From Beroe ovata (lineage: Eukaryota; Ctenophora; Nuda; Beroida; Beroidae), in contig CAMPET010000066.1 in assembly GCA_946803715.1 (NCBI GenBank), positions 282,419-317,459 of the forward strand: a stretch of 35,041 bases of DNA, given 5' to 3'. The position numbers and the translations under genes were made by a program. Positions 214 to 34,177 of the stretch are shown piece after piece. Under the pieces are notes generated by a model that was given only the letters and a program-made list of their open reading frames with translations, was not told the origin of the DNA and did no database searches. Numbering within the stretch: position 1 is the first letter of the stretch; each line of letters starts with the position of its first letter.

Positions 214-3200
214 CTGAACTTCAGTCTTTTCTAAGGACATCAATCCCATTGTCTTATTGAGGAATGGTATCGGTTGAAATACAAAAAGGACTGCCATAAT
301 GACGCAAATAACAAAAACTATCATCAGCGTCCAGTTGCGAAATGCTGGCCTAGGGGATTATCAGATAATAGTATCTTTGTTCCACAAATTTAGCTGAGAA
401 ACTACACGAATGGGAAATGAGTGAAGAGTCACTACCTCCTGTGTGGAGCTCCTTCTGACAAGACTATTCCGTACAGAGCATATTGGAACGACGAGGAGAT
501 GAACAATGCGGTATTTTCATAGGACGGGTTGCCGTACAGGTCCTCTGCCGGGGTGTAGGGAACGAAAAACGGCTGGTGCATCAAGTAGAGGTAGAAAGAA
601 AACTGAAAAATAAGACTTGATTTTCAATGACTTATTCTAGAAGCTCGCAGAGCTGATCTGGAGAGCTCAAAGCGACAAATGATAAACAGTTGAAGATGTT
701 GTTCAACTGTTGTTCAATGGAATTCAAATTAATACCTGGAATATGAAAGTCATTAAGACATGACCAGTCAGAAGGACAAAGACTTTGAGATCAATGAGCC
801 GTGCATTTGGTGTGGTGTCTGCAAGCGTTTTTGCTGGCTGTGCGTGACCCAGTGTAGCTGCAATTGCCGTGATCACAAACAGGTCAATGTAGAGGAACTG
901 TGCATCTGACAAGTTGTTGCCAATGCTGTAATGAATGAGCTGGGTGATGAACTGGATCATACTGTACATGGCCATGAATCTGAATGTCACTGATGCTGTC
1001 ACCAGAGCAGCCCGTCCTTGTCTTAGAATCTCAATCATGCAGGAAATGGAAGGGTTAGTTGATGTGAAGGGAGCAGCAATGGATGCCTCTGCCTCAGACA
1101 AGGAAACACCAGCATGCGCAGATTTCAGTGCTCCACAATCATTTGCCCCATCTCCACACATTGAAACAGTCAAACCAACTTGCTGGAGATCTTCAACCAG
1201 CTTCTGTTTCGCAGCAGGTTTCATACGAGCAAATATCTTACCCCTCAGCAGAAGTAGCTCATAAACTATTGGATGGTCCGAGGCTACTTTAGTGAATGAA
1301 GAGCCTGCTACAGCAAAGACATATGGTTCTCTGGATATCTTGTCAATTGCAATACTCACAGCATCTTCATCATAATGCTCCGGTAGAACAATTGCATCAT
1401 TGTCTTGGAAATCAGGCTGAAAAGACACAGCCTCCTCACTGACTTTGACAACAATGACGTTATGCATCGGTGGAACTATTCCACATTTCCTTGCAACTGT
1501 AGTTGCAGTAAGTATGTTGTCACCAGTAACCATACAAACGCTGGTATTGGAGTTCACCAAAGCACTTATACATTGAGTTGTGTCAGATTTCAGATGATTC
1601 TCCATAACTAGAAAACCTATGAAGTTCAAATCACATTCAATTTGTGATCTCCTTATCGCTTGAAGGCTATGCCAGGTTGTATCAGGAGCCAGGGGTTTCC
1701 ATCCGAATGCAATAACCCTGTAACCATCTTGAGTAAATGAGTTCAATTTGGAATCATAATCATCCGGAATGCTTTCTTCCACTGACAAAGATTTGATCAT
1801 CTCTGGTGAGCCTTTGCAGAAAACTACATATTCATCACTTTCAATACTCTTCGTTATGACAGACATCCTTTGAAACTCCGAGGTGAAAGGAAAGGCCTTG
1901 ATGATTCCCATTTCAGAAAACTTGGTATCTGCATCCAAATTGGTTGTTGCTGGTGTAACAATGGCTGTCAAAAACTGTGGCAGAGAGCTGGTGTGGTCAC
2001 ATTCTTCGACAGACCATTTCGTGAACTTGAACATTTCAATATCCAGAGGGTCACCAATATATTCGCCACCAATGAGTGATATCTCATGACATGTTGCCAG
2101 AGCCTCCACAAGTTTCTGATTGCTTATCTTACAGCATTTGTACTGTGTCGATTGAAAAGTTTTCATTGAAGGAATCGTACAATAAACTGTCAACCCGTCT
2201 TCAGTGAGGGTACCAGTTTTATCAAAACAAATGGTTTCGATTTTACCACAGAAATTAACACGCTGTGGATCAATGCAGAATATCATCACCCTTTTCATGC
2301 GCTGGATTGCATAAACAATTCCAATAGACAGTGCTGCAGGCAAGGCTGGAGGCACAACAACAGTGATCAAGTCAAGTCCAAGTCTCAGTGTTTTCCAGAA
2401 GGTTGCACCAAACTTAACAAGTGATACATAGAAAGTATAGATGAATCCAATAGCAGCAAAGAAAGAAAGCATTATTATGAATCTGGTTGCATCAGTTTGG
2501 AATTCAAATTTAGTAGGTTTAGGGCACAAGATAGATCGTATCAAGGATCCTTTGAATGTATTGAACCCAGTTTTTGTTACAATAGCAGTGGCATATGTGC
2601 CAGAAGAAGGTTTTGCTTGAAGAATTGTAGTACCAGAAAATAAAGAATACTTTTTATCCCTCTCTGCATTGTAAATTAGATCTTCTGTCATATCAAACCG
2701 TTCCACATCCCCTGATTCGAAGATGAACTTTGAAATGTATGGAATGGACGACTTGTTTACTGGTATACTCTCTCCAGTTAGAGCACATTCATTAACAATA
2801 GCAGAACCAGAAACTAAGACAGCATCACAACACAAAGTAGTTCCTTCTCTGGGGATGAATATAACATCTCCAGGCAACAAATCTGATGATTGTATAGTGA
2901 TTTCAATGCCATTCCTAATAGTTAACACTTCACTTGAAGATGATGCCATCGCATTTATTTTCCTTTTCTGCTTTCTTTGTTCAAAGATCGTTATACCTAT
3001 GGATGTCACAGATATAATCAAAATTGCAGAGGCGTACATTTCATATTCGTCTAGCATCCAAAGTATGACAGCAAAGGCCTGGAAAATGTAAAATGGCTGG
3101 ATCACTTCTATGCAGAAAAGTTTGAAGTAAGAGGGAACAGGAACATCAATAGTGTTTTTACCATATCTTTGAAAATAGTCTTCAGAGATTGTATCATCCA

Positions 3201-3585
3201 TTCCATGACTCATTGCATGAATATCAGAATATCGCTTGCTTTCTAAGCCATTTGAGAGAACTATTTCTTCATTTTCAAAAATATATTTCAGGTACTGATA
3301 CTTGAAGAATTTCATGCCATTGACTTTTTCTATAGATGCAATTCCATGTGTTCCAGCCACACATGACATAACATGAACATATGTTGCATCAGAAAACTTG
3401 ACTTTCTTCTTTGTGAAATATACATTTGCTGCTGGGAACCAAAATAAAATCAAGAGGAAAAATCCTCCTGATATTAATGTCAAGATTGTTGCTCCCAATA
3501 TTTTGGGTGCAGATAGTGATAGTCCAGTAGCAACATACTCTGTAGAACAATCATCATGAATGATTTGCGAATTTTTGTAGTTCAT
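214..3585 (-). CDS. P5B-type cation/polyamine-transporting ATPase (ATP13A family), 3' end beyond window
   Basis: P5B ATPases sit in late endosomal or lysosomal membranes; the animal ATP13A2-4 group exports polyamines and related cations. The main exon is 3585-736 (about 950 codons). It is followed by 602-436 and 349-214, with GT-AG borders and matching phases (0, 2, 0). Residues counted from ATG 3585: TGES near 270, the P5B-specific PPALP in TM4 at 412-416, phosphorylation motif DKTGT at 455, KGSPEM, MVTGDN, and the hinge GDGAND near 811. The second exon carries the family's C-terminal YENTALF motif. ATG 3585 was chosen because it lies just before the first hydrophobic spike (SGGFFLLILFWFP) that opens this family; ATG 3609 is also possible. 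The frame stays open upstream to about 3731 but does not resemble the family there. About 1,050 residues are visible. The last TM segment and tail expected for P5B are missing, so at least one more exon should lie to the left; read-through past 214 meets TGA at once. Confidence 0.95.
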
Positions 3586-4294
3586 CAGTGGATGAGATTC
3601 ACCAATCATCAAATAACATGAGGAGAGTTTCTTCTGGCCCTTATATCTGATTGATATCTCATTAAGCAAAAATGTATAATTGATGATACTCCACACTAAT
3701 ATGGTACAAACATTCGGCAAAAGTAGGAACTGAAATTTGACATTTGTTGAACAATGGAAATAAATTTGATATACCTCCTTCTATGTGTGAAGGCTAATAC
3801 CCGTGCAGTCAAGAGAATACAATCTTATAAACAATTACACATGGCCCCAGATTCTGGAGAAGGGGTATATCTAATACCTATAATGGTCCCAGGTCCCATC
3901 TTTGAGGGAATTGTCTTTTCTTCACAGCAATAAGAGTCTTCACTGACGCTCTTGTCATAATGAAATACAGAGACAATCTCATAACTGACACCACTAAAGA
4001 AGATTGAACACGGAGTAAGGATGCTCAGAAGATGCTCAGAAGACCCTCAGAAGATGCTTATTGCTCAAAAAGCATGAACAAAGAAAGTGTAGGATCAATG
4101 AATACACAATATATCAAAATATAGAATGTACATTAAATATGTAGTATTGATTGACCAGTGGTCGGGCTGTTAAATCATGTGGATAAGTTTAAGTTACAGG
4201 AGCTCCTTTTTCCCTGTGAGATCTGAAAAGAATGATCGCGCGCAAGATTTAAGTCACACCGTCTGAACATAAAATTATTCACTCCTTACCACTT
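3586..4294. other. 5' flank of the ATPase gene, no coding exon seen
   Basis: AT-rich sequence upstream of the ATPase start. A good acceptor (TTTCAG) read on the minus strand ends at 3732, so a 5' non-coding exon may join there. Two short direct repeats (agatgctcagaag) lie near 4020-4060. No conserved coding block was recognised on either strand. Confidence 0.5.
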
Positions 4295-4971: not shown

Positions 4972-6275
4972 ATGGCTTCTGCTGCGCCTCCGCTCCCGAT
5001 TTACTATAACCCCGATGTTCACGATTTCTACACGAAACAGAAACAGGAATTTCACTTCCAACAGAAGAGCGACAATGAGTTCATGCTTTTTCTATTGGAC
5101 ACTGCTGTCAGAGTTATATCTATCGGTGAGTTAGCAACAATGGTTGCTGTTCGCTTCAACTCTTACCGTTCATTTCTCCCACTGACGCTTTGCTTTTGCT
5201 CCCAGTCAATCCTTGTTATGTGCCTCGACTCCGGAATGATTGACAATGAATTTCAGTCCAGCATTTAGCCCCCGTAATAGAGGCAGTGTCTGATGCTAAC
5301 ACTGACGTTGAAGACGATGATGATGTTTCACCGACAGTTACACCTAAAGTTACGCTGTCAGTCCCTGGTGAGTCCTTAGCATGGGTCACGTGATCACAAA
5401 CCCAAAACATACTTCTGTATAATCCTCATTACGACACATTTCCCTACAGGAATTATTGAAGTGGATTCGACTCAAATTCCACTGAATACTGGAATCTTGC
5501 CAACGCTTCGAACACAGAGCTTTGTAGATGGAACGCAGTTATCAGACCATCAAGACCCTCCTCATATCTCATCTCAAAACATTGTAGATCATTCAATCAG
5601 CCAGTCTACCAAGCCTGAAATGCAGCGTGCAACAACCCGATCGACTTCCAAATCACTGGTTCTGCTAGCTCCCAGAGACATCGTCGGGCAGGAAGTACAA
5701 CCAAACGTTCCCACCAAACACCAGCCCTCCTCTGGACAAGCTTCACACAATATCCCGACCAGCGTGTCCCACTCGTCACAACCAGTAGCAGAGCCTGCCA
5801 ACGTGGATTACAAAATGGAGGATACTCCTGATGTCATCGAGATAAAGGAGGAAATGGAGGAGGTAGGGGCGCCGTCAAGCGAGTTGCTCACCCCTGAGAA
5901 TCTGCAGCAACTCATGACGTCTATTTCCGGAGTTGATGGGAGTGTTCAGAACTTCGTTCCGACAGCCACGAGCTTACCCCCCTTGTTGCTCGATCGGAAT
6001 GCCAACAACTCGCTATCCATGGTTGGGAGTCGCAGTGGTCCCGGGCCCGCCGGCTTAACTCTGCCCGACACGCTTATGTGAGTACCACTTCTGTATTGAT
6101 GCTGTATCATGAGTTTTGAATATAATCCGTTTGAATGAGAATCAACGGATTGCATTTTGCATCATGGAATTTGAATGTTTCATGATGGATTTCATGATGA
6201 ATTTCATGTTTCGCAGGAAATCTATAACAGAGGGAGGAATCAAGTTGACTGATATGAAAGGAGCATCTAACTCGA
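4972..6275 (+). CDS. shared 5' exons of a zinc-finger gene with alternative 3' exons
   Basis: Four exons: 4972-5125, 5257-5367 (alternative acceptor gives 5269), 5450-6077 and 6217-6275. Donors are GTGAGT, GTGAGT, GTGAGT and GTAAGA. Phases run 1, 1, 2, 1, and the joined frame is open for 317 codons plus one base. ATG 4972 is the first in the frame (TTTTATGG). The N-terminus (residues 1-51) is rich in aromatic residues, F, Q and K, and was not recognised; no BTB/POZ or other known domain is seen. Then follow an acidic patch (VEDDDD) and a long disordered S/T/P/Q stretch with an acidic VIEIKEE segment, a typical SUMO-consensus context. There is no zinc finger and no stop in this part. It must therefore splice onward, and the phase-1 end fits every finger exon downstream. 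Inference: the common N-terminal half of a transcription-factor family made by alternative splicing. Confidence 0.75.
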
Positions 6276-6303
6276 GTAAGACTCATTTCCATACTTTTTA
6301 AAC

Positions 6304-6413
6304 ATAGTTCCCAAACGATACCATTGGGGCCGTGCGTGAAAGACCCTTTAATTCTTTATATGCATGCGATTTTTAACGGGTCCTTGATAGAATAATAAAA
6401 GTTTGGGAACTAT
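6304..6413. mobile_element. 110-bp MITE-like element with 13-bp terminal inverted repeats
   Basis: ATAGTTCCCAAAC at 6304-6316 is matched by its exact reverse complement at 6401-6413. The interior has no coding capacity. It sits in the intron between the shared exons and the finger exons. No convincing target duplication was seen. Confidence 0.45.
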
Positions 6414-6480
6414 TAATAATTCGTTTTAACCCAAATATCTATAGTTCATTTTTGCTCTTTTCTTGTTCCCAAATCATTAG

Positions 6481-6533
6481 ATGTGGTCACCTGTAACAGC
6501 TGTTCAGTGGATCGGCTTCCCTTATTTCTATGA
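6481..6533 (+). pseudogene. possible degenerate zinc-finger terminal exon
   Basis: After a CATTAG acceptor, a phase-1 frame reads NVVTCNSC followed by nine residues and TGA. The CNSC pair is the first half of a C2H2 finger. In another frame, just downstream, the text SLISMRHLRSKG resembles the second half of a finger (L-x2-H). A small indel would join them, so this looks like a decayed member of the finger-exon set. It could equally be coincidence, as the match is short. Confidence 0.25.
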
Positions 6534-7183
6534 GACATCTGAGAAGTAAGGGCTTGCGCTTACTGTTATTAACCCAAGTTAGCGTCTCTCTCACGTATCA
6601 TCCAATAAAGGACGTCTGCCACAAAGGGAGTGGGGTTTTCAGGGGGAAAAAGGGAGGGTTGGTTCGAATTGCAGACATTCGGATTTTTCATTCAATCAAT
6701 TAATGCAGTACCGATTCGTGGAATACGTCCTCTATTAGAAAGGGGATTATTTAATCAGTCACAAGAAAAGTGAGCTCACCATTCAAGAATTCCGCGTGCA
6801 ATACGCACGGTAAGGGCTAGCAGTAGGGCGAGGGTAACTGTTGATTGCATGGACTTGTCATTCTGATACATTGCCTGATTGGGCTAAGTTGGCAGAAAAG
6901 AGTTTTGATTTCCATTTAACTCTCACTTATAGTACGAGGCGTATTAGTACGAGGCGTATTTTTCGAAATTCACCGTGTATTATTCCATCTGTCCTGATCA
7001 AGCTATCAATTCTGATCTTCCTCCAAATTCTGATCGTCCTCCAAATATCAAGAAATATCAGTTTGCCTCTCGATTTTTCAGTTCCGTTAGGAATCAGAGA
7101 AAACACTCGCTCATTGTTGTGCGGAGAGCGGAGAGAAATACAAATTCCCGTGCAAATGCAATCCATGATGACTACGACTAAGT
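6534..7183. other. intronic stretch without recognised exon
   Basis: No supported exon. Contains two short direct duplications: TAGTACGAGGCGTAT twice in 6930-6965, and a TCTGATC-TCCTCCAAAT block twice around 7011-7048. Open frames here lack splice support or recognisable domains. Confidence 0.5.
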
Positions 7184-7423
7184 TTTAGGCTCGTTAATGA
7201 CGGCAGGTCATACATTGACGCCATACAGCAAGGAGGCAGGAAGCTAACAACGTTCTACAAGTGGCGACCTATCGCCGAGATGAGGATTATTGACTAGGAT
7301 CAGTTTAGCGCGATTGTCGAGGAGGGCTTGAGGGATATGCTGAAGATATGCGAGGAGACACTCAGCGGAGAGAAGTATCTTGGCATCCACAAGGACATGC
7401 TAAAGAAGGGAGATGTGCTTTAG
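7184..7423 (+). pseudogene. coding-like relic of unknown family with one in-frame stop
   Basis: A frame of about 79 codons with strong protein-like composition (KWRPIAEMRIID, then EEGLRDMLKICEETLSGE and LGIHKDMLKKGDVL) is broken once by TAG at 7295-7297. It ends at TAG 7421-7423. It has no start codon. The family was not recognised. It may be an exon relic of a host gene or part of a transposon protein left inside this intron. Confidence 0.35.
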
Positions 7424-7601
7424 TACTTTGTATTCAACTTTGTACTCAGATTCGTACTCAGTTTTTAACCAAACTTTCATCATATTGATTGATAATAAAG
7501 TACAACATTGAAGTGTATAATATCGACTGTCTCCGTAGTCCGTGTCTTAGATACACAGCCGGGCCGTATGAGAGGCAATCAATTCAGCATGTATCCCGGC
7601 A

Positions 7602-8289
7602 ACTAGTGTCGGTGTCAATGCAGCAATTTGGCAACAATTAGACAACAATAACGCAATGAGCGACTAAAATTAAGACAACAATAACGCCTCCTGCCAATCA
7701 TATATCACCCCCACAGCAGCTTCACGACGCAGAAGAGTAACCAACTTATCAATCGACGCCGCAGTCCAGGAGTACAACGAGATCCTGGCCGCAGTTGCAA
7801 CTGGCAAAGCTCTGTCAGTTGTTCTCCAAGAGAAGCAGGTGGACAGATCCCACTTCTTCAGAAGACGATGCATTGCTGAAGCTGCTCTGGCCGACAGAGC
7901 AGCACTTGAAGCAGCATTTCGTCAGTTGAAGAAGGTAACGCTTGCTAACATGATTCCTCATGCTACGAGGATCTGCAACAGCAAGATGGCCGAGTAATCC
8001 CGCCTGTTTGCTGAAGGTAGGGCGCTCCGCCCCAAAGCCAGATATTGAACACCAGTGTTTCAATCAGTTATTCAGTTTTATCAGATTTAGATATTGTACA
8101 TTTCATATTTACTCATATTTCATTCAAAAACGCGTCAAACATGAATGTGTCAGACAGAAATAATTGAGAAATAAAAATGATTGCCTCATTGTTGCGTTTT
8201 TGTTATCTTAGTTTTAGTCGCTTGATGCGGTGTTGTTGCTTTATTGTTGCCTTATTGATGCCTTACTGTTGCATCGACACCGGCACAAG
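7602..8289. mobile_element. terminal-inverted-repeat element carrying an exon-like ORF
   Basis: The left end (7602-7626) and right end (8266-8289) are diverged inverted copies of CTTGTGCCGGTGTCGATGC, each followed inward by CAACAATAA-rich sequence. A shorter element with the same ends lies at 19426-19568, so this is a repeated family. The interior contains the ORF described at 7717-7997. No transposase was recognised. This suggests a non-autonomous DNA element, possibly one that captured an exon. Confidence 0.6.
7717..7997 (+). CDS. putative DNA-binding (HTH-like) exon inside the TIR element
   Basis: After the acceptor CACCCCCACAG a phase-1 frame runs 93 codons to TAA 7995. It begins with a basic SRRRRV patch. 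A helical segment follows, with pattern AAVATGKALSVVLQEKQVDR and then RRRCIAEAAL. This resembles a helix-turn-helix, but that is my reading of the pattern and not a family match. There is no ATG near the start, so it must be spliced to upstream sequence. Its phase fits the 6275 donor of the zinc-finger gene. An internal donor (AAG|GTAACG, after 7934) is also possible. Past the TAA the same frame again looks protein-like (SRLFAEGRALRPKARY, to TGA 8046), so the TAA may be a disabling mutation. It may be a pseudogene or a co-opted exon. Confidence 0.35.
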
Positions 8290-8956
8290 AATTCGGTCTG
8301 AATTCTGTGTAGTGGAGGTCGGGCTTCTTGGAAATGTGACTCACTTCCATGCTGATACACCAATACACCAGTAATGGGGGAAGCAAGGGGACAGGGGTGT
8401 GGTTGAGGGTGAAGGGGAGGGGGGGGGCTTTATTCCGGTAGGTGTCCTTTATCGACGCTCCCTATCATAGATCGTATGACATGTTAACTCTGTACTGACC
8501 ACTCTGTTCTGACCAACAAGAAGAGAAGCAAACAAATTCAATTTCCTCATTCACTACCAATTTTCTCATTATGCCATGGACTATAACCTAATTTAGCTTC
8601 CATTTTCAATTTCTATTTTGTTTAGTTAGACTGCTGTTGTGTTTGCTGTGATACAATTGACAGTTCAGCGTGCTAATAATATTTACCATCGCGGGTCACA
8701 TTTGGCAAAATTTAGACAAAACATCTTTTGGAACTAGCAAAAAGTAGCGTCATTTGCAATGAAAATCTGTCGTGCAATTGCTGTGTTCAGTGCGCGTTAC
8801 CTGCCGGGCGCGCGGCGTGGGAAAATGTTAACTTGTTTCGTTTCGATTGCGGTCAGTAACTATGTTTTTAGGGATGCGGATATTTTGAATAATATGACAC
8901 TTTGATATCTGTGAATATGGAGCTACAGCGTGCAGGACTCATGTTGAGCGTTTCAG
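8290..8956. other. intron before the zinc-finger array
   Basis: Contains a G-rich run near 8380-8430 and AT-rich sequence. The open frame that leads into the first finger exon could also start at ATG 8917, within the same frame; a separate downstream promoter is therefore conceivable. No other coding signal was seen. Confidence 0.45.
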
Positions 8957-9180
8957 CAAACCACACGAACACAGTGACATGTGAAGTCTGTTTGCGACAG
9001 TTTACAGGGAAACTGAGCGTGGCTACGTACAGACACCACTACAACGCCATTCACCTCAAGATCGCTAAATATCACTGCGAGTACTGCAGCGAGAAGTTCT
9101 TCCACCGGAATCAACGGAGACGTCACATTAGCAAGTGTCCGAAAAGACCTAGCTTAAAGATCGATACAGCAAGCTTGTGA
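8957..9180 (+). CDS. alternative terminal exon A: zinc-finger pair
   Basis: Acceptor GCGTTTCAG, phase 1, ending at TGA 9178-9180. It encodes 73 complete residues plus the shared split codon. Finger 1 is atypical: CEVC followed by a longer loop to HHYNAIH. Finger 2 is CEYC-x12-HISKC, a C2HC form. The basic linker and RRRHISKCPKRP tail are typical of DNA-binding finger pairs in insect Lola and Fru isoforms. No internal donor in a phase compatible with the next finger exons was found, so this is a terminal exon. The same frame is open upstream to ATG 8917, so an alternative start inside the intron cannot be excluded. Confidence 0.65.
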
Positions 9181-9731
9181 ACTGAACACTTACATAATCC
9201 GTGGTGTAAACAGAGTAAAAACGAAGTAACACAGAGTAAAAACGGAGAGTCAGATATTTAAGTCATGGACATTTTACATCATAGCACCGAGTCAATATCG
9301 CGTATTTTATTCTAGGAATCACGGCAAGTAACATGATTATTCAGATGAGATGGGCTATCATCTTAAGGTGGGGGCATTTTCAAAGCCCATTAGAGGAACG
9401 TTCATCTATTGATCAAGGATTTTGAGATTGAACATCATCAGTCTCGGTGTGCAGTGAGAGATGCGTTATCCGATTTTTTGGGCGAATATTTGAGAACCTT
9501 TCAATTTAACTGCTGGCGGTGTACTTAATCATTGGAGCAACACAGAAACTTAAATAAACTGCTAATACTTATTTGTCACTCAACCAAACACAGCACCAGT
9601 TTTTCATTGCACGATGAATCCTAGTGATCGTGAGAGCAAAATTTTCTCTCATTGCACCAAATAACAATGCCCAGGCGAGGTGAAATTTGTCATTTATCTT
9701 GTACAACTGTACTGAGCTTGTCGATTTTCAG
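9181..9731. other. spacer between finger exons A and B
   Basis: AT-rich, with no recognised coding or repeat structure except a short direct repeat CAGAGTAAAAACG near 9210-9245. It would hold the 3'UTR and poly(A) site of isoform A; no canonical AATAAA was seen on the plus strand. Confidence 0.4.
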
Positions 9732-9949
9732 AGTTCGGATCGAAACGTTGTCCATTCTGTGAGGTGGAGTTTAGTCGAGTTAATAACCTCAAACGTCACA
9801 TCTCAACAATTCATCTGAACGAATGCAGTTTTGTCTGTCCTGTTTGCAACAAAAAATTCAAGCAGAAGTGTCATTTAAAAAGACACCATGCCCTCTTGCA
9901 TGATGCATCTAAATTTTCGGTAAATCCTGCAATGAAAGTTATAGTTTGA
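9732..9949 (+). CDS. alternative terminal exon B: two C2H2 zinc fingers
   Basis: Acceptor CGATTTTCAG, phase 1, stop TGA 9947-9949. Two canonical fingers: CPFCEVEF..NNLKRHISTIH and CPVCNKKF..CHLKRHHALLH. Both have H-x4-H spacing, joined by a six-residue linker. A possible donor after 9919 is phase 0 and does not fit the phase-1 acceptors of exons C or D. The exon is therefore best read as terminal. It is parallel to exons A, C and D in phase and layout. Confidence 0.75.
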
Positions 9950-10021
9950 AATCAAACGTTTTACTAAGTTATCAAGTTCTAATCGAGCGAGTTCCCAGCA
10001 TTTGATGAAACCCCCTCACAG

Positions 10022-10218
10022 GTCGAATAATGGGAAAAAAGAGTAGAATACAGTGCGCTACCTGCCTACAGATTCTGAGTTGCAAGACGGCACTACACCG
10101 TCATATCAAAGTTGTGCACCTCCGTAAAAAGGACTTCAAGTGTGAATTTTGCGACAAGGCCTTCGGCCAGAACTCTGATCGTGTGATACATCAAAAAACA
10201 GTCCATTACAGTAATTGA
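10022..10218 (+). CDS. alternative terminal exon C: two C2H2 zinc fingers
   Basis: Acceptor CCCCCTCACAG, phase 1, stop TGA 10216-10218. Fingers: CATCLQIL..TALHRHIKVVH and CEFCDKAF..SDRVIHQKTVH. A weak donor (ACA|GTAATT, after 10210) is phase 1 and could splice to exon D, which would give a four-finger protein. Without that splice the exon ends three codons later. An internal ATG (10030) lies just inside the exon, but the phase-1 acceptor matches the shared donor. Confidence 0.75.
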
Positions 10219-10523
10219 TTGCAAATTCGGTATTTGTTTAGGTTTCTACTTGCTCATGCTGCTACGATAAATCCCAAATATTAGAGTATTCTCAGGGAAG
10301 AGCATTGTTTTTCACCCAACAGAGAATGATCAATGAGTGTTAATGTTATCGATAGGTTATTTGATTCAGTAAAACATGAATATTGTAGTCATCCTTGTTC
10401 ACTCAGCTGGATATTTTCATTCTATGGATCATTTCCTCAGAAATTAGCGAGAATCTCGGAGTATTAATGGGAGTGGACTGGGAGAGATGTATATTTCTCA
10501 AGCTGTGAAATGTATCTTTTCAG
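10219..10523. other. spacer between finger exons C and D
   Basis: 305 bp with no recognised repeat or coding signal other than the acceptor preceding exon D. Confidence 0.4.
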
Positions 10524-10843
10524 ATCGCATCGCACACAGCAACTCTGGATCTGGACCAAAGAGTAGTAGTGATCGATCATGCAACATATGCGGGAGAACT
10601 TTCACCAAGAAAAGTGATCTGACCAGGCACATAAAGCAAGTCCACTTCCAGCTCAGGCCGTACAAATGCAAGAGATGTAGCCAGACCTTCAAGAGGAACA
10701 CTTGCCTTACTATTCATTCTAAGAAATACCATTCAGAGTTGGGAGAGCAAAACAGTGACAATAGCAGAAGTACTGGATCAGACCCGACATACGATTCGAC
10801 AGCGAACAAAGAAAAAACTCCTAACGTTACCTGGCCAGTGTGA
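10524..10843 (+). CDS. alternative terminal exon D: two C2H2 zinc fingers and acidic/serine tail
   Basis: Acceptor GTATCTTTTCAG, phase 1, stop TGA 10841-10843 (105 residues). A serine-rich lead (about 20 residues) precedes CNICGRTF..SDLTRHIKQVH and CKRCSQTF..TCLTIHSKKYH. These are the most canonical fingers of the set; the linker FQLRPYK resembles the classical TGEKPY type. A 35-residue S/N/T-rich tail follows. As the last finger exon it could be the default 3' end of the locus. Confidence 0.78.
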
Positions 10844-11757: not shown

Positions 11758-13042
11758 TTAAACGTCTTGGTCACTGTCAAGAATGGTTATCTCTGGGATC
11801 TTGGGTGATTTGCTTGGCGTTGATCTCAGTTGGGACGATCTATCTTGTAGTGGCATCATCCCCGATGAGCACGAATATCTCCGGGCATCGGCTCGGGAGT
11901 GGAATGCCGGGGCGCTGTCCTCCATAATAATCTCGAAATTTGTCCACCTCCGCACCCGTTCGGTGATAGTTTCAGTGCAGGTCTTAGCTTGTGCAGAGGA
12001 ACCGGTTACCGGACCCGTAGAGAAAGATGTTGTGGCCTCTGAAACCTTGCGAGCATGATCCCTCATAAACTTTTTGAAATTTCTGTTCACGATTGTGTAT
12101 ATAATGGGGTTGATGCACAGACTAATCATATGGAAATACTGTGGAATCCTGTTTAGGGAAGACGTTGACAGGTCCCGGTCAAAGAATCTCCACACACTAA
12201 ACGCTATGTGGGGGGTCCATGATACACAAAATGATCCCCCAATCATGAATGTGGTGACCAGAATCTTCTTGTTCTTGTTCCAGACAACTCCGCTTAGTTT
12301 GAGGGATATGCCAGCAAGAAGAATGATAGCCAAGATCACCACAATGAATGGGAGACAAATATACAGCACCCACACAATGATCATCAGAGTGCTGCTAGCA
12401 TTGTGGGTGTCCACTGTGCAAGAGTCAGTGATGAAGTGGATCTCAATCTGTGTAAAGAATATGATGGCAGGTAGCGCTGCTGAATACACCCAAACAAAAC
12501 CCACCACCGAAAAAGCAATGGTTTGGGTGAAGAAGTTGGCAGACCGGACTGGGCTTATACATCTCAGGAGTCGGTGAACTGATATAAGGAGGATGAAATG
12601 TATGTGGAGGAGTCCTGGGTAAATATTCACCACTCCGAGGATGTAACAGACGGTGCAACCCAGGACCCACTCTTTGGAGGAGTGGACGCTGAGCAGGGGA
12701 ATGACCACCAAGATTTGGGAGATGAGATCAGCAATAGCGAGGTGCTTTACGAAGAGAATGGTGACATTGTCGATGGTGTAGTTTATGTTCATGTAGGATA
12801 TAGTACAGAGAAGCACCAATATATCTCCTGTAAAACCTGACGGTGGAATTATTTGGTTACCATGGATATATCATGCTGCATGTTACATGTTGGATTGAGA
12901 ACTGAAGCTGCTGAATATCAAACTTACCTATCACGAAAGTAACAATGGAGAAGGTGAGGAGGAAAGCACTTTGCAAATCTGTTGTGATGTCCTGGTAGTG
13001 TGTATCCAAGTTGGAACAGTTGACTAAAGCACCCAAATACAT
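11758..13042 (-). CDS. class A (rhodopsin-like) G-protein-coupled receptor, 394 aa
   Basis: Two exons, 13042-12928 and 12827-11758, joined G|GTAAGT ... ACAG|GA in phase 1 within TM1. Seven hydrophobic segments are present. Class A landmarks: LAIADL in TM2 (D72), a Cys at the top of TM3 with a partner in the second extracellular loop (DSCTVD), SWTP in TM6 (W242, P244) and NPIIY in TM7 (N278-Y282). The tail of about 100 residues is rich in Ser/Thr, as expected for kinase and arrestin sites. Odd points: the TM1 position usually Asn (GN) is Asp (IGDILVLL), and the DRY box reads HRL (R124 kept). The N-terminus is short with one NCS sequon. The ligand cannot be told; peptide or orphan metazoan receptors are possible. 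Confidence 0.9.
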
Positions 13043-25700: not shown

Positions 25701-28700
25701 TCAGGCAGACAAACACACATAGAGACACAGGCAGACACAGACACAGGCACACCCAAACACGGGCAAACACAGGCAGACACAGACTCACACAGACACAGGC
25801 ACACACACAAACCTGCTGTCAGGAAGAGAAGCTTTGTTGGAATGCAGTTCTCTGTCCACCAGCCACTTTGCATGAGATTTTAGCCCATTCATAACGACTT
25901 CTCTTCTATAGCTATCAATGGCTGAGTCTTCAATAATCTGAATTAATTGTCGCCAGTTAAACCTAACGGACACAGTAGTCTATCTGTGACACTACAGAAT
26001 ATTCGTTCAGCTGATTGATAACACTGCTATCAACCGGCAGAACGAATACTATGATCATCCTCCCCTGTACCTGATGGTAGTGAATAGCTGGGGGCAGGGC
26101 TGGCTCATCCATAACACTTGCAACGGAAGCTCTCTTTTCCCACCCTCCTATAATATGATGGGGTGGCTTCATGTTGCCACTATACACCAAACCTCCTGGT
26201 ACAATTTCACCCTCCTCGAAATCCCGGACCCATTTCGATCCCGGGCTTGAGTAGTAGGGGGTCAGGAACGTATATCTGGTGGCGGGGATTGACGGTAAAA
26301 GCAAATGGCAGCTACCGGATTACGCTTCAAACTCTTGTGTAATGTGACACATTACTAATGTGTCATTCTCAGGATTAAAATCAAAGATAGCATCGTGTCG
26401 GAACTCAGATTTCATTTAGTCTGGAGGAAAATTCGGCCTAAAAAATAAAAAGCAGACGTCCTTTTTATCAGAAACTGGCTTACGGCCATGCCACAATTGT
26501 CGACAATGTCATTTTTCACTAAGCTGACCAATTGGGGTCGAACGTTTTTTCCAGATTACAAATTTTCCCAGCGCGGCGCTTTATTTCGCACATTGGCATA
26601 GCAACTGCTTGTTAAAAGTGCTAAGGATAGGAATTTAACTGCAGCATACAAATTCGGTCTACGCGCGTTCCATACAAAAGAAGACCGTTCTACTAGACCG
26701 CAAATACTTACGCGCTGGCCAGATTGTCGCATTCCACATCTTCCTTGACTTTCACCACATTTGGATCAGTGCTCTCTAACAGTGCTCGACACTTCTCCCG
26801 ATCCATTATTTCTGTTCCCGTTTTATCAGAGTGAATCACAAACAGCCTCATGGGCGGCTTGAACCGCTCCTCAATTTCATGATAAGATGAATCATTCTGT
26901 CGATAGTAGTGATCCAAATGTTGAACAATGTGCGAATCTGGTTTCTCTGACAAGATCTCACCGTCGTATGTCACGTTGAAAATGTTGCCGATCACGTCTG
27001 TGTGACGGAAGCAGACCTCACTTTCCAGTGCAAAGTTGTGCACACCCAACTCAGTGAAATGCAATTGTCCATTCTCCCTGACAGTATTCAGAGTTTGGGG
27101 CGAGACACTCTCTCCAAACTGTGTATCTGTCCCAAACTGCACGATGTTATCATAGGGAGACACATTGAGTAGTGTCCCGTCACCATCCTCAATTGTAAAC
27201 TCTCTGTTTCCCAAACTAGTGATTCGACTCGGAGTTCCAAATAGGGTCTGGGATGAGTCACCGTCAAAGTGCAGTGTGGCGTAACCCACACACTCAATGC
27301 GGTATGACGCCGCACCTGGGAGGAAGAGTGAAGTTCAATTCACTTAAGTTAAGTGATTCAACAAGTTAAGTGACTTAACAATTCGACAACTCACTTCCAA
27401 GTTCCAATCATTCACATATAGCATACACCCATATGTTAACACACATTACGCTCAGTCACAGTAATCAGAGACTATAATCAATACTTAGTGCATACCATTC
27501 TCCGCTGTGACAGTTGTAATTCTAGTCCCATCTGTATGGTCCACAATGCGTGTCCCATCTGGTCTACTTACAGACAGTATATTGTCCATCCTTGTAAACA
27601 TTACCTGATAAATATCAAACACTAACGATTCTTGGATAACTGCCAATATTGTCAATAGAGAATGGTTTTTCTGGGAAAAGTCCCAAATCTCAATGTTCAT
27701 TTCGAATACAAGAGCCAACTATTGCAGCTTTATGTTACCTCATGTGACTCAGGGTCTGTAGCTGTGTAGCACTGTAGTGTCTCCAGTTTCCTCACTTCAC
27801 CATCACTCATCACCTGTTCCCTCTCCCCGTTCTCCTTTGTTACTTCCCACCTCACGTAGGGAGGAGGGGGAGGGGGCACTTCCACCGGTTCTAGGGCTGT
27901 ATCTTGGGTGTTAAGCGTCCCTAGACATGATACCGGTACAACTATTCAGCAGCAATTACACACGCAGACATACATACATGCATACATACATACACACACA
28001 TACACACATACCGACACACACACACACCGACACACACATAGACACACACAGATGATCAAACCTTCACTTGTCGCCTCTGAGGCGGGTTCCGATGGCGGAG
28101 GAGGTGGTGGGGGTGGCACATATTTGGTGGAGTAGCCACCATCAGGGCACAACAGTACAGTTTCACCTGGGCGAGGGTGGCTCAGATGGCACAAACCGTA
28201 TTGAAGTTGTCTACGGAGTTTGGGGTATGAAAGTATGGAATTGTCAAAACTGAACTACTACTGACCCCCTGGTGAACTCACCATTCTTCATGTGCTTTAC
28301 TACTGTTCCATTGGACAAATATAATCGGGATATCTCGTCAGCACATGCCTTGGCTTGCACTTGCTCACATCTGTGCTTCAATTCGGTCTTGCTCTCATAA
28401 GTTTGTCGCACTGCATAGCAATCTGAGAGTCGATTTTCAAACATGTAGCAATACAATCATAGATATTAATCGATTTTGGATTATAATTCGACCCTGTACA
28501 AAAGTTCTGTAAATCTGACCTGAATTCCCTTGTTCACAGTACTCAATGACCAGTCCAGTGGGTATTGACACCACCAAAACGGATGATAAACTCTCATCTT
28601 CAACTGCAACTCCACTAGTCTCAGCTAACTCCGCGGCTTCAACTTCATCACCCACTTCTTCCTTAACCGGCGGTGCTGACTTCATTTCCGGCTTCTTGAA

Positions 28701-31508
28701 ACTCAAAGACAGACCACCTGATTGTATGAACGGAGTGTTTGGATGTGTGTGTTACAATGTGATTTTAAACAGTATTTGGTAAATGCATGTGAAATGAGTA
28801 CCGTACCCTTAAGTTGAGCATTGAACGAGACATTCCTCGCTAAGGGTGTTTCCGACTGCTCCACTTCCGGGATTGATGGACTCTTTGCACCGTCCTCTCC
28901 CTCTGCCACAGCATTGGATGCAGATTCCTGAGATAGGTTGTTCATGAGGTCTGGAGAGATCAAATGCAACTCATTGATCAGAATTCATCAAAACAGATGA
29001 TAGTATACAACAAATTCGTACCGCTTCAGCGAGTTTTCTCTGCCTCTCTTCCTCCCTTATCTTTTTCTCCTTCCTCAAGTCCATATCCGACTTCAGATCA
29101 TAGTTGAGAGACAGAACATGCCCGTCTTTGAGCACGGATATGCGTGATCGTGGCCGTTTACCGTCAAATGCCCACTTCTCAACCCTCACTATGCTGCCAT
29201 CGGCAGGGTGGCAGTGCGAAACATCCCCTGGAATAGAGAAATGGGAAAATTAGGAAAACTTTTCTAGAGAGAACAGCTTCAAAATGCCACTTCAATATTG
29301 GAACAAGTCTGATGTCTATACCTGTCGCCTCGAGTATCTGGTTGGCGAGTTTAAACCCGACAAACATGTCACTCCCGACCTCCTCATCCAACACGATGTC
29401 CATCTCGGGCTCGGGTGGCGCCGGCGCCATGTCAAACTCAACCTTACTGGCGCTACTCTTAGCACTCCCAGCTCGACTAGAAACCGATCGTTTGGAGGGC
29501 GATCCCTTCCTCTTGGGACTGGCACTCCCTTTCCTACTTCCTTGTCCACCTTTCTTGTCAGGAGATTTAGCCCCGCCACCATCTGGCTTAGCGCCCTTTT
29601 TAGCGGAAGCCTGGCGCTCCTGTTCTGCTTCTTTCATTTCGGTTCGCTTCTTGAAACCCTCTAATCTGTTCTCTGGTATCTGCAGAAGAACGTGCTATGA
29701 GCTGATAAATAAACAATGATTTTCCCTCTTTATCAATAAATCTCAGAGTTTGTACCTGGAATTCCGGTTCCTCATCTGCTTCCGTTACCGGTGTCACAGG
29801 TGCAGGTGAAGCAGAGGGTTCAGATGGCACGGGGGCTGGTGTCAAGGGTGGCAGGTTGTCGATCATCTGTGCAAACTGGTCCCTGGTCCGTGACATGAAG
29901 TAGTGGAATCCAATGTTAGTGTGGAGTCGCTCACTCCAGGAGGACGATGCTGGTTTTCTGTCCGTGTACCCGGCATGGAACACAAGCAACATCGCGTTCT
30001 CGTGACGGTGATATATCCTCTCACAGTATGGGTAGTCGTAGAATGATTCACTCAGTACCTGCAGCAGAGGGCACAGTTGAGGATATCGTCAGAGTCATCA
30101 TATTATGATGTTTTCTACGTTTAGTTTTCATATCATCTCCAATTATTATGACTGTGTTTGTTATTGTTTTACGATTGAATTCCAGAGAGCAACAACAGGA
30201 GCTTTGAACAATATTTCATTTCTCAAGGTAAGGATTCGTTCAGCACAGTACCTGCAGCAAAGCCTCTTTTTCGTAAGTCGCACTAAAGTTGTAATGATCT
30301 AGTGTCATTCTCTGTTTAGGCAGTGGAATACTCTTCAACTTTGCAATATCCCCGGGGGACTTCTCTCCTGGTCTCAGTAACAACTCAACGTCCCAGAAGT
30401 AAGAGTGGGGGTCAGATAACTGGGAAATGTCTGATTTAGCAGTCGTGGAGTCAAAGTTTTCAAAAGCGAATTGTCGGAGAGCTTTGTTGACCAAGGTGTT
30501 CTGGATTTCACCACAAAACATTTCTGTTTCGTATGCCAAGGACTGGCTTTTTGCCAGGATTTCAGAACCAGCTTTAGGTAGCTCTAAGAACTTGTTGGCA
30601 ATGCTTTGCTTGAGTAGAGCCCTGAAGAAGTGTCAAAAATAGAACAGTATTCAAACTAAGTCTCAAGTGTGTTTTGAAACTCATTTCATAGTGATACTTA
30701 CTGATCTTTCAGAGGGTAGACATCTGGTGCCAAATGGAACGCCTTGATGCCCAAATCATCTGATGCTTTGAGCACTGTCGGCTGTTCATCAGTTTCAACA
30801 GCCTTGTGCTTCAGTGTCATGAACTCTTCAAACTCCTGAATATTAAAACTCCTGATTAAACGTGACTGAGGCAGAATATTGAATTATTGAGAGAACAAAC
30901 AACAACTGAAGTAGAAGATCAGTTGATATAGAGATTGGGACTGAGGAGGGGTGCCAAATATTTTGATTGTCGTCACAGCTTCTCGAATTTCGTTCAGACT
31001 TCGCAATGAACCTAAGAACACTGATTTCTATCAAGATACGGTACCGTTTGTTGCTGCAAGCTGAGAGGTAGGCTGTGTATCATGGATCCGAACTGCTGTT
31101 TCACGGGATCCTCGTTAGGATCCTTAGCCTCACTCTTTGCTTCACTCTTAGTGTCTTCTCCCTCAGTGCTGCGCAGTGCTTCTTCACACACCTACAGGAG
31201 CATGAAAACTGTTGTTCAGTGGATAGCATAGTGTTACGAGTACGCTAATGTCATACAATGTGATACATAGTGTAGCTGTCAAACTGAATGATATGTCGGA
31301 GATGTTAAATTAATCAATGTGAGCAAGTGAGCAGCATCACACCAATTTCATGTAACCACTGCCGACTGCATATTACACAGTACAAACACACACACGCACA
31401 CACACTGACCTGCTCTAGCATACAGTTTAGAACAGAGACATGGGTCACACTCTCGTAGGGTAGAAGCGATATCATCTTGTTGTAATATCTCATATCCAGG
31501 GTGTGNCA

Positions 31509-31547
<39 letters not shown>

Positions 31548-34177
31548 ACCTGCTCCAGCATACAGTTTAGAACAGAGACATGGGTCACACTCTCGTAGGG
31601 TAGAAGCGATATCATCTTGTTGTAATATCTCATATCCAGGGTGTGGATAGGCTCCCCTTCCTCGTTCACAGCTGATAAGTCTGCTACTTCCACCAACTCC
31701 ATTCCTATAGGGACATCATAGGAATATAGGATTCACTGTGGCATAGTGGTGATCAAGAATAGCACTTGAAAATCCCGTCGATTGGTCAATGGTCGCACTT
31801 GTTATTCCTACCCTTATTGTATTGATGGAACTGTGATAGACAGTTATGAAGCCCATAGATCTGATCCACGACGTTCTTGTACAACGCCAGTCTCATTTCA
31901 TCCTGAGAGTGAGGTTCATAGAGTATCTCCAAAATAGATCCTGTTAGCGAAACACACGAAGAAACAACTATAAACCCACCATTTTCTCATTATCTTTCTT
32001 CATCTCAGAGTCTAGCACTACACGTGGTAGGTGCATGGACTCGAATCCCACAGAGGCAAGAGAGGCAGGGAGCGGTACCTCGCTGGCATGTTCCGCAATC
32101 TCCGCCCAGAATGTATCCAGGAGATTTTGTGACGCTTCCACTCGGGCTAACATCTCTGGACTGTCAGTATCCTCTGGTATGACAACCTTGAAAACGAGGG
32201 GGTATCTCTAGTCCAAAATATAAAAATACCTAGCTCAAATAACAGGAAATAAGGGTCTGTCTTGGTTTCTTTTGATTTTTTTTGGAATTTCACTGTTTCC
32301 ATGTACCGTTGTTACCTTTGATCCGGGTGCTGGTGAGGCCATGTGTTCCATGAAGGAGCAATCTTTGGAATACTCCAGAGAAGAGATGTTGACAAGACCA
32401 GTAACAGGGAGATTTGTCTTGAAACACTCCTCCAGTATATCTGACTGATCAAATCCCACACACAAAACAAATATGTCTGGACTGCGTTCCGGGTAGTCAA
32501 CTGTGGAATGTGGTTAATGGTTGTTGGTGTTATCTGTGTATTTTGACAGATATAGCTGAGTACTCGAAATGAAGGTAGATAGTGACCTATTTTCGCCGGA
32601 CCCTCTGTTTCCTCCCCTCGCTTCTTCAGAGGACACTTCCCTCGCTCAATTTCAGAATCTGCATCTATACTGCCACCTTTATCCTTGCTGGGAGACTTCT
32701 TGCCGCCCTTCTTGGCATCCTTTTTGCCTTTGTCTGGTGACACAGACTTGGCTGGTGACTTGCTGGCGTTACCCTTACCCTGAGGATATAATTGTGTCTG
32801 AACAGCAGTATCCTGAGGATAACAAGGTACTTTTTAATGTGACTTTCTTTATTTACCACTGAATCAGAGGAAATCAAAGAGACAGCCACACTCATTATAA
32901 CCCAAAAACGACAAGCGAAAGAGTTAACTGGAAGAATTATCAACAGGAAGGCGCCATTAGGGCATATAAGACACAGTATACTCCAATCAAATTAGTACTA
33001 GAGTACAGTAACGAAACCTTGCAATGATTTCAAAAGACGGTTGACCAGAATAATACAAATACAGCTACATAGGAACAGCACAAATCAAGACAAATAAGTT
33101 GTTGATATGATTGGTTTTCAGCATTTTTTATAGAAATCATGTCTTCAAATTCATTGAATGAAATTATGTTACAAAGAGAAGTTCTGCTATTCCTCTCCTC
33201 TTAGAGCAGGTCTCTGATCATAATAGATTTTATTGATTGGAACAGCAATCATGCAAGAGTTCAGCTCGGATACCTTTCCTTTTTTATCAGACTTCTGATC
33301 AGATTTCTTATCGGATTTTTTATCAGATTTCTTATCAGATTTCTGATCCTTTTTTGGGGTTTTACTGTCTACCTAAAAGTTGTCAGTAAACACTGATTAA
33401 AGATTCTTTGCAACTTATATCCATGTCTAATTTATCGACACACAGTCCATCGAATCTTATCAGAGTGACTTGTGTTATATCATGAATATTCAATATATAC
33501 TGAGAATTTTGAGAGAGGATGAAACCTTACCTTCACCACATCTTCTCTCCTAGAAATCTCCGCATCCCTGTGTTCCAATATCTTTACTTTGAGCAACTTT
33601 GCTAGAACAGAAGATGGTACACAGTCATCAACAGACTTCAGGGAGGCAAACAGCTCAGGGAATGCTGACTTTGACCCGCTGTCTTTACCCTTTCCAAATT
33701 CTTTACTCTGAAATTTCAAGCTATTTCAGTGTGTCAGAAATATTGGATTTTGTCATGATGTAACATCAGAAAAGCATATTTAATCATCAAAAGAGACTTC
33801 ATCGGAACACATGAGTCGCTAATACAAACGGCAGTCACTAGGGCATCCTTCTCTATGTATACAAATTTCTCTCTGACCCCTGTCTCTACTGCACTCCCCA
33901 GCAGGTGCAGAGGTAGCTTATCTTCAACTTTGGATGGAGATAACAAATATGTATGTACCTTCAGCTCCTCCTGAAGATGAATAAGTCAGAATATATGGAA
34001 ATAATCATTGATCAATATCATGGATGTAATTACAGCAACATACAAAGCTAAACATCACATAGAAACTATCACATAGCTAACATCGTCAACTAGTATTGAT
34101 GCAAGGCTGGCTTCCCAGGCACCTCCACCAGATGCTGCATTTGTTGGTGTCTTTGGTTTACCTTTGGCTTTGGACAT
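19720..34177 (-). CDS. SPAG17: SPAG17 / PF6-like protein of the ciliary central pair, about 35 exons
   Basis: SPAG17 (PF6 in Chlamydomonas) builds the C1a projection of the axonemal central pair and is needed for ciliary and sperm motility. Exons (minus): 34177-34082, 33970-(end unsure), 33707-33531, 33372-33274, 32779-32587, 32500-32316, 32186-31976, 31940-31812, 31704-31550, 31191-31045, 30835-30702, 30621-30252, 30058-29756, 29679-29322, 29227-29022, 28927-28807, 28717-28520, 28422-28282, 28166-28062, 27920-27739, 27604-27496, 27315-26712, 26275-26071, 25937-25813, 25626-25527, 24346-24187, 24048-23905, 23671-23594, 23390-23283, 23123-23005, 21769-21479, 21347-21186, 21063-20917, 20682-20580, 19910-19720 (tentative). 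Phases agree from the third exon to the end. Total about 2,080 aa, close to the roughly 2,200 of vertebrate SPAG17. Diagnostic text: [36 protein letters not shown], and the C-terminal ASH/MSP-like domain [22 protein letters not shown]. Confidence 0.93.
19736..19792. repeat. TG microsatellite
   Basis: Two TG runs split by TCCATAG, then a TG-rich tail. It lies inside the tentative last SPAG17 exon, where the minus strand would read HTHTHT. Confidence 0.9.
20378..20450. repeat. short tandem array of CGACTTTCA (9-bp) units
   Basis: Seven or so copies of CGACTTTCA, some with a CCC insertion, between the last two proposed SPAG17 exons. Confidence 0.85.
20917..21769 (-). CDS. SPAG17: SPAG17 C-terminal ASH-like domain exons
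   Basis: Part of the SPAG17 gene described at 19720-34177. Exon 21769-21479 carries the basic linker ending [17 protein letters not shown]. Exons 21347-21186 and 21063-20917 form a beta-sandwich of the ASH (ASPM-SPD-2-Hydin)/MSP type: a [13 protein letters not shown] core, then [12 protein letters not shown], then [17 protein letters not shown]. Such domains are common in ciliary proteins. All introns here are phase 0. Confidence 0.9.
22412..22760. repeat. dispersed palindromic repeat family (AAAAGCGGAGTCCGCTTTT)
   Basis: The near-palindrome AAAAGCGGAGTCCGCTTTT occurs exactly at 22435-22453 and 22727-22745, with related GTGGACGTCCGCTTCTT between them. The preceding AGTCTGGAGGAA..TTCG.GCCT block (22412-22434) recurs at 26418-26439 beside AAAAGCAGACGTCCTTTTT. 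The copies are intronic in SPAG17, in the 23005-21769 and 26712-26275 introns. This fits fragments of one mobile element family. Confidence 0.7.
23714..23820. repeat. 25-bp tandem repeat, about four copies
   Basis: Unit GCGTACTAATTACGAAAGGA plus GAGAT; unit starts at 23714, 23740, 23765, 23790 and 23815. The middle copies are identical, suggesting recent expansion. It lies in the SPAG17 intron between exons 24048-23905 and 23671-23594. Confidence 0.92.
25672..25812. repeat. degenerate CA / ACACAGGCAG minisatellite
   Basis: ACACAGGCAGACACAG-type units within a SPAG17 intron, running up to the donor of exon 25937-25813. The minus-strand reading (VSVCVSACV) is not coding. Confidence 0.85.
26418..26466. 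repeat. third copy of the AGTCTGGAGGAA / AAGCGGAC family
   Basis: AGTCTGGAGGAAAATTCGG followed by AAAAAGCAGACGTCCTTTTT. It matches the order of blocks at 22412-22453 with several changes. Intronic in SPAG17. Confidence 0.6.
27957..28050. repeat. CA/TACA microsatellite
   Basis: ACATACATGCATACATACA then ACACACATACACACATACCGACACAC runs in the SPAG17 intron between exons 28166-28062 and 27920-27739. Confidence 0.9.
28282..30252 (-). CDS. SPAG17: SPAG17 central region: charged linker and conserved sheet repeats
   Basis: Part of the SPAG17 gene described at 19720-34177. Exon 30058-29756 has the conserved [18 protein letters not shown] block. Exon 29679-29322 is a Lys/Ser/Gly-rich low-complexity linker ([23 protein letters not shown]), as expected at this position in vertebrate SPAG17. 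Exons 29227-28282 hold short segments of the form [20 protein letters not shown] and [13 protein letters not shown], typical of the repetitive DG-turn strands of this protein. Confidence 0.88.
31401..31645. repeat. 105-bp duplication of a SPAG17 exon end across an N and a CA run
   Basis: 31401-31505 and 31541-31645 are identical except for one base (tgctcTag versus tgctcCag), a silent change in the exon. Between them lie the N at 31506 and a long CA run. The right copy is continuous with the real exon (31704-31550); the left copy is continuous with the following intron. This is best explained as two alleles joined in tandem by the assembler. Confidence 0.85.
33286..33352 (-). repeat. in-frame KSDKK repeat in a SPAG17 exon
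   Basis: The 12-15-bp units TCAGATTTCTTA (plus strand) repeat about six times and encode a lysine-rich (D/Q)KKSDKKSD series in exon 33372-33274. It is coding low-complexity sequence in the charged N-terminal linker of SPAG17, where vertebrate homologues are also Lys/Pro rich. Confidence 0.85.

Follow-up and report, generated by a model that had tools for sequence, protein, structure and literature searches.

We examined a 35,041-nucleotide stretch of the Beroe ovata genome (hereafter the window), lying on contig CAMPET010000066.1, called C66 below, with loci on other contigs of the same genome given as C-number:position. Its plus strand carries what is very probably a ctenophore transcription-factor gene in which one promoter-proximal module serves several alternative terminal exons, each encoding a pair of zinc fingers. 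The module would encode a head domain and a long linker with an IKEE motif and would end in a short last common exon, whose phase-1 donor would be spliced to one phase-1 acceptor of the finger-exon array per mRNA. The mRNAs would then share the head and differ in their two-finger DNA-binding end. Tandem duplication of finger exons would enlarge the array, and duplication of the entire gene would have placed copies elsewhere in the genome.

Common exons, alternative ends and the head domain

Direct reading of the window gave a common part of four exons in frame from the ATG at 4972, all on the plus strand. Common exon 1 (4972-5125) encodes 51 amino acids (aa) of the head domain and ends in a phase-1 donor, and the domain is completed in common exon 2 (5257-5367; VQHLAPVIEAVSDA...). 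The linker lies in common exon 3 (5450-6077), which contains the conserved IKEE motif, an LQQLM stretch and an FVPTA motif, and common exon 4 (6217-6275) ends at the shared donor TCGA|GTAAGA, also in phase 1. Four alternative terminal exons follow at 8957-9180, 9732-9949, 10022-10218 and 10524-10843, each with a finger pair and its own stop. Joined in silico to the common part, they produced frames of 391, 389, 382 and 423 aa, respectively, uninterrupted to their own stops, and these four complete joins confirm the original prediction, made from the letters of the window, of four such exons in phase 1 to the donor at 6275. When acceptors were ranked without regard to phase, the best was in phase 1 for all four exons. 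Good acceptors had been claimed for the whole set, which agrees with the scores of 9732, 10022 and 10524 (3.6-5.2) and less well with that of 8957, whose acceptor is the weakest of the four (1.7). Pfam C2H2 models recognised the 9732 and 10524 exons above the cut-off and placed the 10022 pair just below it (24.7 versus 25.2 bits), while the 8957 pair reached no Pfam C2H2 cut-off. All four ends conform to the two-finger pattern and have matches among the array exons of other loci; the 8957 exon, which is most similar to an array exon on C62 (59% over 37 residues), is the weakest member of the set. An inverted-arm element (7603-8289) also lies in the intron that separates common exon 4 from the array; its arms at 7617-7687 and 8194-8264 are 79% complementary and 506 nucleotides apart, and it is probably the relic of a DNA transposon.

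The head-domain motif present in the window gene is DVxxxYxKQKxEFHFxQKSDNEFxxFLLDTAVRVISIVQHLAPVIEAVS, followed by the linker with IKEE and NPLSM-like motifs (NSLSM in the window version) and then the DNA-binding end. IKEE is near-invariant in the linker, and we take it to resemble a SUMO-acceptor consensus. Pfam found no match in the frames that hold the first and third common exons of the window gene, nor in the shared portion of P0001 and P0006, two homologues from the protein search described below, and a whole-genome search for BTB domains returned 33 matches with none on C66, in agreement with the earlier view that the shared part lacks a BTB domain. A structure-based search of residues 1-51 for a hidden dimerisation domain had also been suggested; comparison with solved structures gave a match at chance level only (E-value, E, 0.79). 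With no Pfam match either, a BTB or other known head domain was rejected as an assignment. AlphaFold2 (12 sequences) predicted helices at residues 15-27 and 35-66 with moderate confidence and a further helix at 104-126; the fingers were modelled confidently and most of the linker with low confidence, and the fold model of P0001 had a mean predicted local distance difference test score (pLDDT) of 49. The head would be a small, mostly helical domain and, by analogy with BTB in lola, probably mediates protein contacts, perhaps dimerisation.

We compared the head exon pairwise among six paralogues and found 0-14 nonsynonymous changes per approximately 124 sites and 7-28 synonymous changes per approximately 29 sites, with 7 synonymous and 0 nonsynonymous changes between C24:106 and C24:141. 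Between the window head and the other five, synonymous changes were near saturation (22.0-28.3 of about 29.5-30.2 sites), and nonsynonymous changes numbered 10.7-14.0 of about 123, a nonsynonymous divergence (dN) of 0.09-0.12. Because synonymous change is high to saturated and nonsynonymous change is small, the head exon is under strong purifying selection.

Paralogous arrays and splice phase across the genome

When the genome (77.8 Mb, 534 contigs) was searched with the 51-aa head exon, 12 places matched. Besides the window, these were eight more clear copies (E 5.5e-25 to 4.2e-11), a diverged one on C52 (E 1.6e-5) and two weak matches. One finger exon used as a query gave 67 matches; most formed groups of individual short frames on C99, C70 and C24, and a smaller number lay on C34 and C62. 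In all, 96 finger pairs are arranged in eight finger-exon arrays, and in six of these the array lies downstream of a head on the same strand: 6 pairs follow the head at C24:106336, 16 that at C24:141301, 20 that at C24:396781, 3 that at C34:300198, 5 that at C62:160651 and 4 the head in the window. The two other arrays, with 13 pairs on C70 and 29 on C99, showed no head in the stretches examined. The C99 array (C99:188000-207999) is the largest, packing its pairs into about 18 kb with several near-duplicates in tandem. Two head matches yielded no array, as we recognised no DNA-binding domain by eye in 3.7 kb at the weak C107 match (E 0.011) and no DNA-binding end by eye in 7.8 kb at the diverged C52 copy, where 2400 N lie downstream. 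The remaining weak match was at C52:100004 (E 0.037). Separately, C17:23187-23342 is an isolated array-type finger pair with a phase-1 acceptor and an early stop; it may be an orphan exon from this gene family.

For the phase comparison, we took the best-scoring acceptor of each finger-pair frame, again blind to phase, and kept 96 of 101 frames as array exons. Those left out were three frames on C82 with ordinary fingers, the frame at C34:317186 (phase 0) and one on C80, which has a head gene but carries ordinary fingers in separate exons and a best acceptor in phase 2; two finger exons of C24:423 also fall outside the 96 because they did not fit the search pattern. The best acceptor was in phase 1 for 87 of the 96 array exons (C24, 40/42; C99, 23/29; C70, 13/13; C62, 4/5; C34, 3/3; window, 4/4), and seven of the nine exceptions had a second-ranked acceptor in phase 1. 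As controls, we used 20 stretches around non-array finger matches and counted the 15 frames with at least two fingers, leaving out single-finger frames: 3 were in phase 1, 4 in phase 0 and 8 in phase 2, and one of the three phase-1 controls (C17) looks much like the array-type pairs and might be misplaced among the controls. The finger frames of C80 and C82 were in phase 1 in one case of four. On the donor side, the last common donor was in phase 1 in all six genes in which the fourth common exon was read (window, C24:106, C24:141, C24:397, C24:423 and C62). With 87 of 96 acceptors and six of six donors in phase 1, donor and acceptor phases match genome-wide. The original prediction had put the coincidence of the four window phases at 1 in 81; the four matches are real, but they are weak alone, and it is the genome-wide count that carries the case.

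These counts bear on whether each finger exon could instead be a gene of its own, with a separate promoter and first exon and a phase that matches by chance, as the C70 and C99 arrays without a visible head might suggest. We regard this as extremely unlikely given the difference between array exons and controls in the share of phase-1 acceptors, the six arrays with a head upstream on the same strand, and the proteins of relatives, in which one head is joined to different fingers.

We found that adjacent array exons are more alike than expected from shuffled order (118.8 versus 94.5, standard deviation 2.4, 0 of 2000 shuffles) and that similarity is higher for exon pairs from one array than for pairs from different arrays (96.8 versus 83.9). 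The likeness of neighbours relative to shuffled arrays points to tandem duplication of finger exons. Zinc-finger contact positions are numbered -1, 2, 3 and 6, and the 46 of 96 pairs with two canonical fingers, to which this count was confined, have 46 different residue sets at these positions; as all are distinct, the binding preferences of the finger pairs probably differ. A possible dead finger exon lies on the plus strand of the window at 9379-9432, where FKAH*RNVHLLIKDFEIE contains an in-frame stop. It was matched by one of 103 queries at E 0.005, with other stray matches near E 0.05. The array had been proposed to gain and lose exons: gain agrees with the signal of tandem duplication, whereas loss and the "relics" cited for it come down to this one weak match.

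Relatives in other ctenophores and other ends on the same head

We searched 5.8 billion proteins with a predicted window isoform as the query, requiring exact five-residue words, and obtained 19 proteins. Twelve of them (P0001-P0012) match the common part, and the named relatives are Bolinopsis microptera LOC134813369 (isoforms X5, X6, X8 and X15), Bolinopsis LOC134821797 and one Mnemiopsis leidyi protein. The named head relatives are thus all ctenophores, which bears out the earlier impression that the host was not an insect. The other seven proteins had E 6.9e-5 or worse and covered 11-19% of the query, and we take most of them to be finger matches. The first 72 residues of P0001 returned 11 proteins, all within the same set of 19. 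No relative of the head outside ctenophores was found by this search, which could miss remote relatives because it depends on exact five-residue words.

At the level of database models and contigs, relatives join one head to different fingers. LOC134813369 X5, X6, X8 and X15 share 373 identical residues and then continue into different finger ends, and P0002 (472 aa on a 1496-base contig), P0007 (415 aa, 1409 bases) and P0023 (276 aa, 1653 bases) read through from the common part into the fingers. These three look like spliced RNA, as their contigs are too short for introns of the size seen in the window gene. Together with the same-genome paralogues and the phase-1 donors, the Bolinopsis isoform models support the original reading of one N-terminus with parallel finger-pair 3' exons. 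Each relative with a common part and a C2H2 end (P0001-P0005, P0007, P0011, P0012 and P0023) carries a single finger pair. The order and shared phase of the arrays would in principle permit their exons to be cassettes strung into one many-fingered protein, but the single pairs in these relatives and the stop in every window finger frame make such an arrangement most improbable.

Several individual ends also have counterparts in other species, as judged from a set of the 96 array pairs and seven pairs from relatives, with the C34:317 pair left out. The window exon at 10524 and the finger pair of Bolinopsis LOC134813369 X6 are reciprocal best matches (67% over 33 residues), which gives this exon a counterpart within the set that the original prediction proposed to look for in related species. 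C24:407262 and P0002 are likewise reciprocal best matches (81% over 53 residues), as are C34:305761 and a finger shared by Bolinopsis and Mnemiopsis (96% over 51 residues). LOC134813369, annotated as an "uncharacterized protein", resembles the window gene in its head, linker motifs and last common exon, whereas its nearest paralogue in Beroe is C24:396781, the common part of which ends in the same peptide, KNISDAGLNVSSIKGQANP. Bolinopsis LOC134821797 and Mnemiopsis ACHWQZ_G001731 have the same head and the finger pair 96% identical to the C34 exon; unlike in the window gene, their conserved finger belongs to the C34 paralogue and corresponds to no window exon.

We also considered whether the window locus could be a duplicate in decay, with the working gene on C24. 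It has only four exons, a possible relic, a weak acceptor at 8957 and an inverted-repeat element in its intron, and its dN to the paralogues exceeds that among them. Nevertheless, the four reading frames are unbroken and the common splice sites intact, head dN is low despite near-saturated synonymous change, and the 10524 pair has its Bolinopsis counterpart in X6, making decay very unlikely.

The same head is followed by other kinds of DNA-binding end elsewhere. At C24:423652-419232 (minus strand), the common part precedes two exons with zinc fingers (acceptors 420414 and 420070) and one with a homeodomain (419455-419232, minus), and joins through phase-1 acceptors give full in-frame proteins of 436, 428 and 432 aa. 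A clean reading of this locus is weakened by the first finger exon, for which a phase-0 acceptor at 420448 is stronger (6.84 versus 5.6); the acceptor at 420070 was chosen by eye, without a score. For the homeodomain exon, the phase-1 acceptor scores best (3.68), Pfam recognises the domain at E 4e-19, and the frame has no methionine upstream of it. The nearest full-length relative in the genome is C235:10944-11672, a single open frame, and the C24 stretch yielded no N-terminal part of it. Seven homeodomain relatives from a further protein search (one named, Bolinopsis LOC134816799) lack the head, and the C24 exon begins a few bases upstream of the point at which its resemblance to a headless, single-frame ctenophore homeobox gene sets in. 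With its relative elsewhere, no N-terminal part in C24 and headless relatives, the exon looks captured from a headless homeobox gene like C235:10944-11672. It could alternatively belong to a separate homeobox gene whose first exon was missed, though the location of the full-length relative on C235 and the missing N-terminal part in the C24 stretch argue against this and in favour of capture. Other combinations were a head exon upstream of a homeodomain divided among several exons on C72 (128001-135200), a head followed by ordinary fingers on C80, and the same head joined to a SIX1_SD domain and a homeodomain in P0010. We see an even chance that ctenophores evolved their own modular system, in which a lineage-specific head is spliced to any of many ends of interchangeable classes; a single promoter at C24:423652-419232 would then serve two proteins with zinc fingers and one with a homeodomain.

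Comparison with lola, counter-evidence and neighbouring genes

Insect BTB genes are the best-known case of one gene giving many DNA-binding specificities through parallel 3' exons. Among them, mod(mdg4) and fruitless are insect or arthropod genes with one N-terminus and alternative C-terminal ends; they are like the window gene in their alternative ends and differ in having BTB heads. Drosophila lola, according to its published description, has common N-terminal exons and unique 3' exons giving at least 20 isoforms, most with zinc fingers, which are produced by both cis- and trans-splicing (PMC1947980). The window gene resembles lola in its common N-terminal exons, in the single donor phase for all ends, and in ends with finger pairs and stops. 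In contrast, the common part of lola has a BTB domain, whereas none was found in the window gene, which is therefore not a member of the lola/BTB family, and the ctenophore family has many head genes, one with a homeodomain exon. We found no description of such ctenophore genes in the literature, as covered by titles and abstract openings with few subscription papers and no preprints. The sequences suggest a family of ctenophore genes that has the organisation of lola and a head other than BTB, and that probably arose independently. The original prediction had raised an independent route to many DNA-binding specificities, and this is likely given that no relative of the head was found outside ctenophores, though a search by five-residue words is no proof of it.

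Several observations weigh against the proposed organisation. Two array exons, C99:206630 and C99:205469, have no phase-1 site among their three best acceptors, and the fold prediction for the head is moderate (pLDDT of about 65-80 over the block). The Bolinopsis isoforms come from database models, LOC134813369 resembles the paralogue at C24:396781 more closely than it does the window gene, and the match between 10524 and X6 spans only 33 residues. The C70 and C99 arrays have no visible head in the stretches examined, which include upstream N runs of 5328 bases on C70 and 8216 bases on C99 in which the missing heads may sit. A separate polyadenylation (poly(A)) signal for each alternative end is the expectation for lola-type genes, and canonical hexamers follow 29 of 92 array exons, the three C34 exons and one window exon with a short flank being left out; 197 of 200 shuffles reach 29 (mean 38.8). 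As the hexamers are not above shuffles, a separate poly(A) site per exon is not visible.

The missing heads, the lack of poly(A) enrichment and the use of both routes by lola (PMC1947980) would be compatible with trans-splicing of head and finger exons from separate pre-mRNAs, a route known from part of lola. We consider this unlikely, since the head of six arrays lies in cis and shares their strand and the N runs may hide the other two, and we prefer alternative cis-splicing. Splicing of the window gene, the choice of cis over trans, the function of the head and the DNA targets are what we infer. If true, the occurrence of a lola-like layout with an unrelated head in an animal branch as deep as the ctenophores would mean that this solution arose more than once, and a compact genome of 77.8 Mb would encode about 100 finger-pair ends from a handful of promoters. 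It also makes testable a lola-like splicing choice as a cell-type mark in ctenophores and the addition of a homeodomain beside zinc fingers by exon capture.

Other genes were seen in the window, all on the minus strand. Many short frames at 26700-33000 look like exons of a long ciliary gene, which we presume to resemble SPAG17; Pfam gave no match in the two frames tested. A single open frame of 1018 aa at 724-3780 encodes a P5-type ATPase, and a rhodopsin-family receptor frame lies directly downstream of the finger array at 11758-12870.

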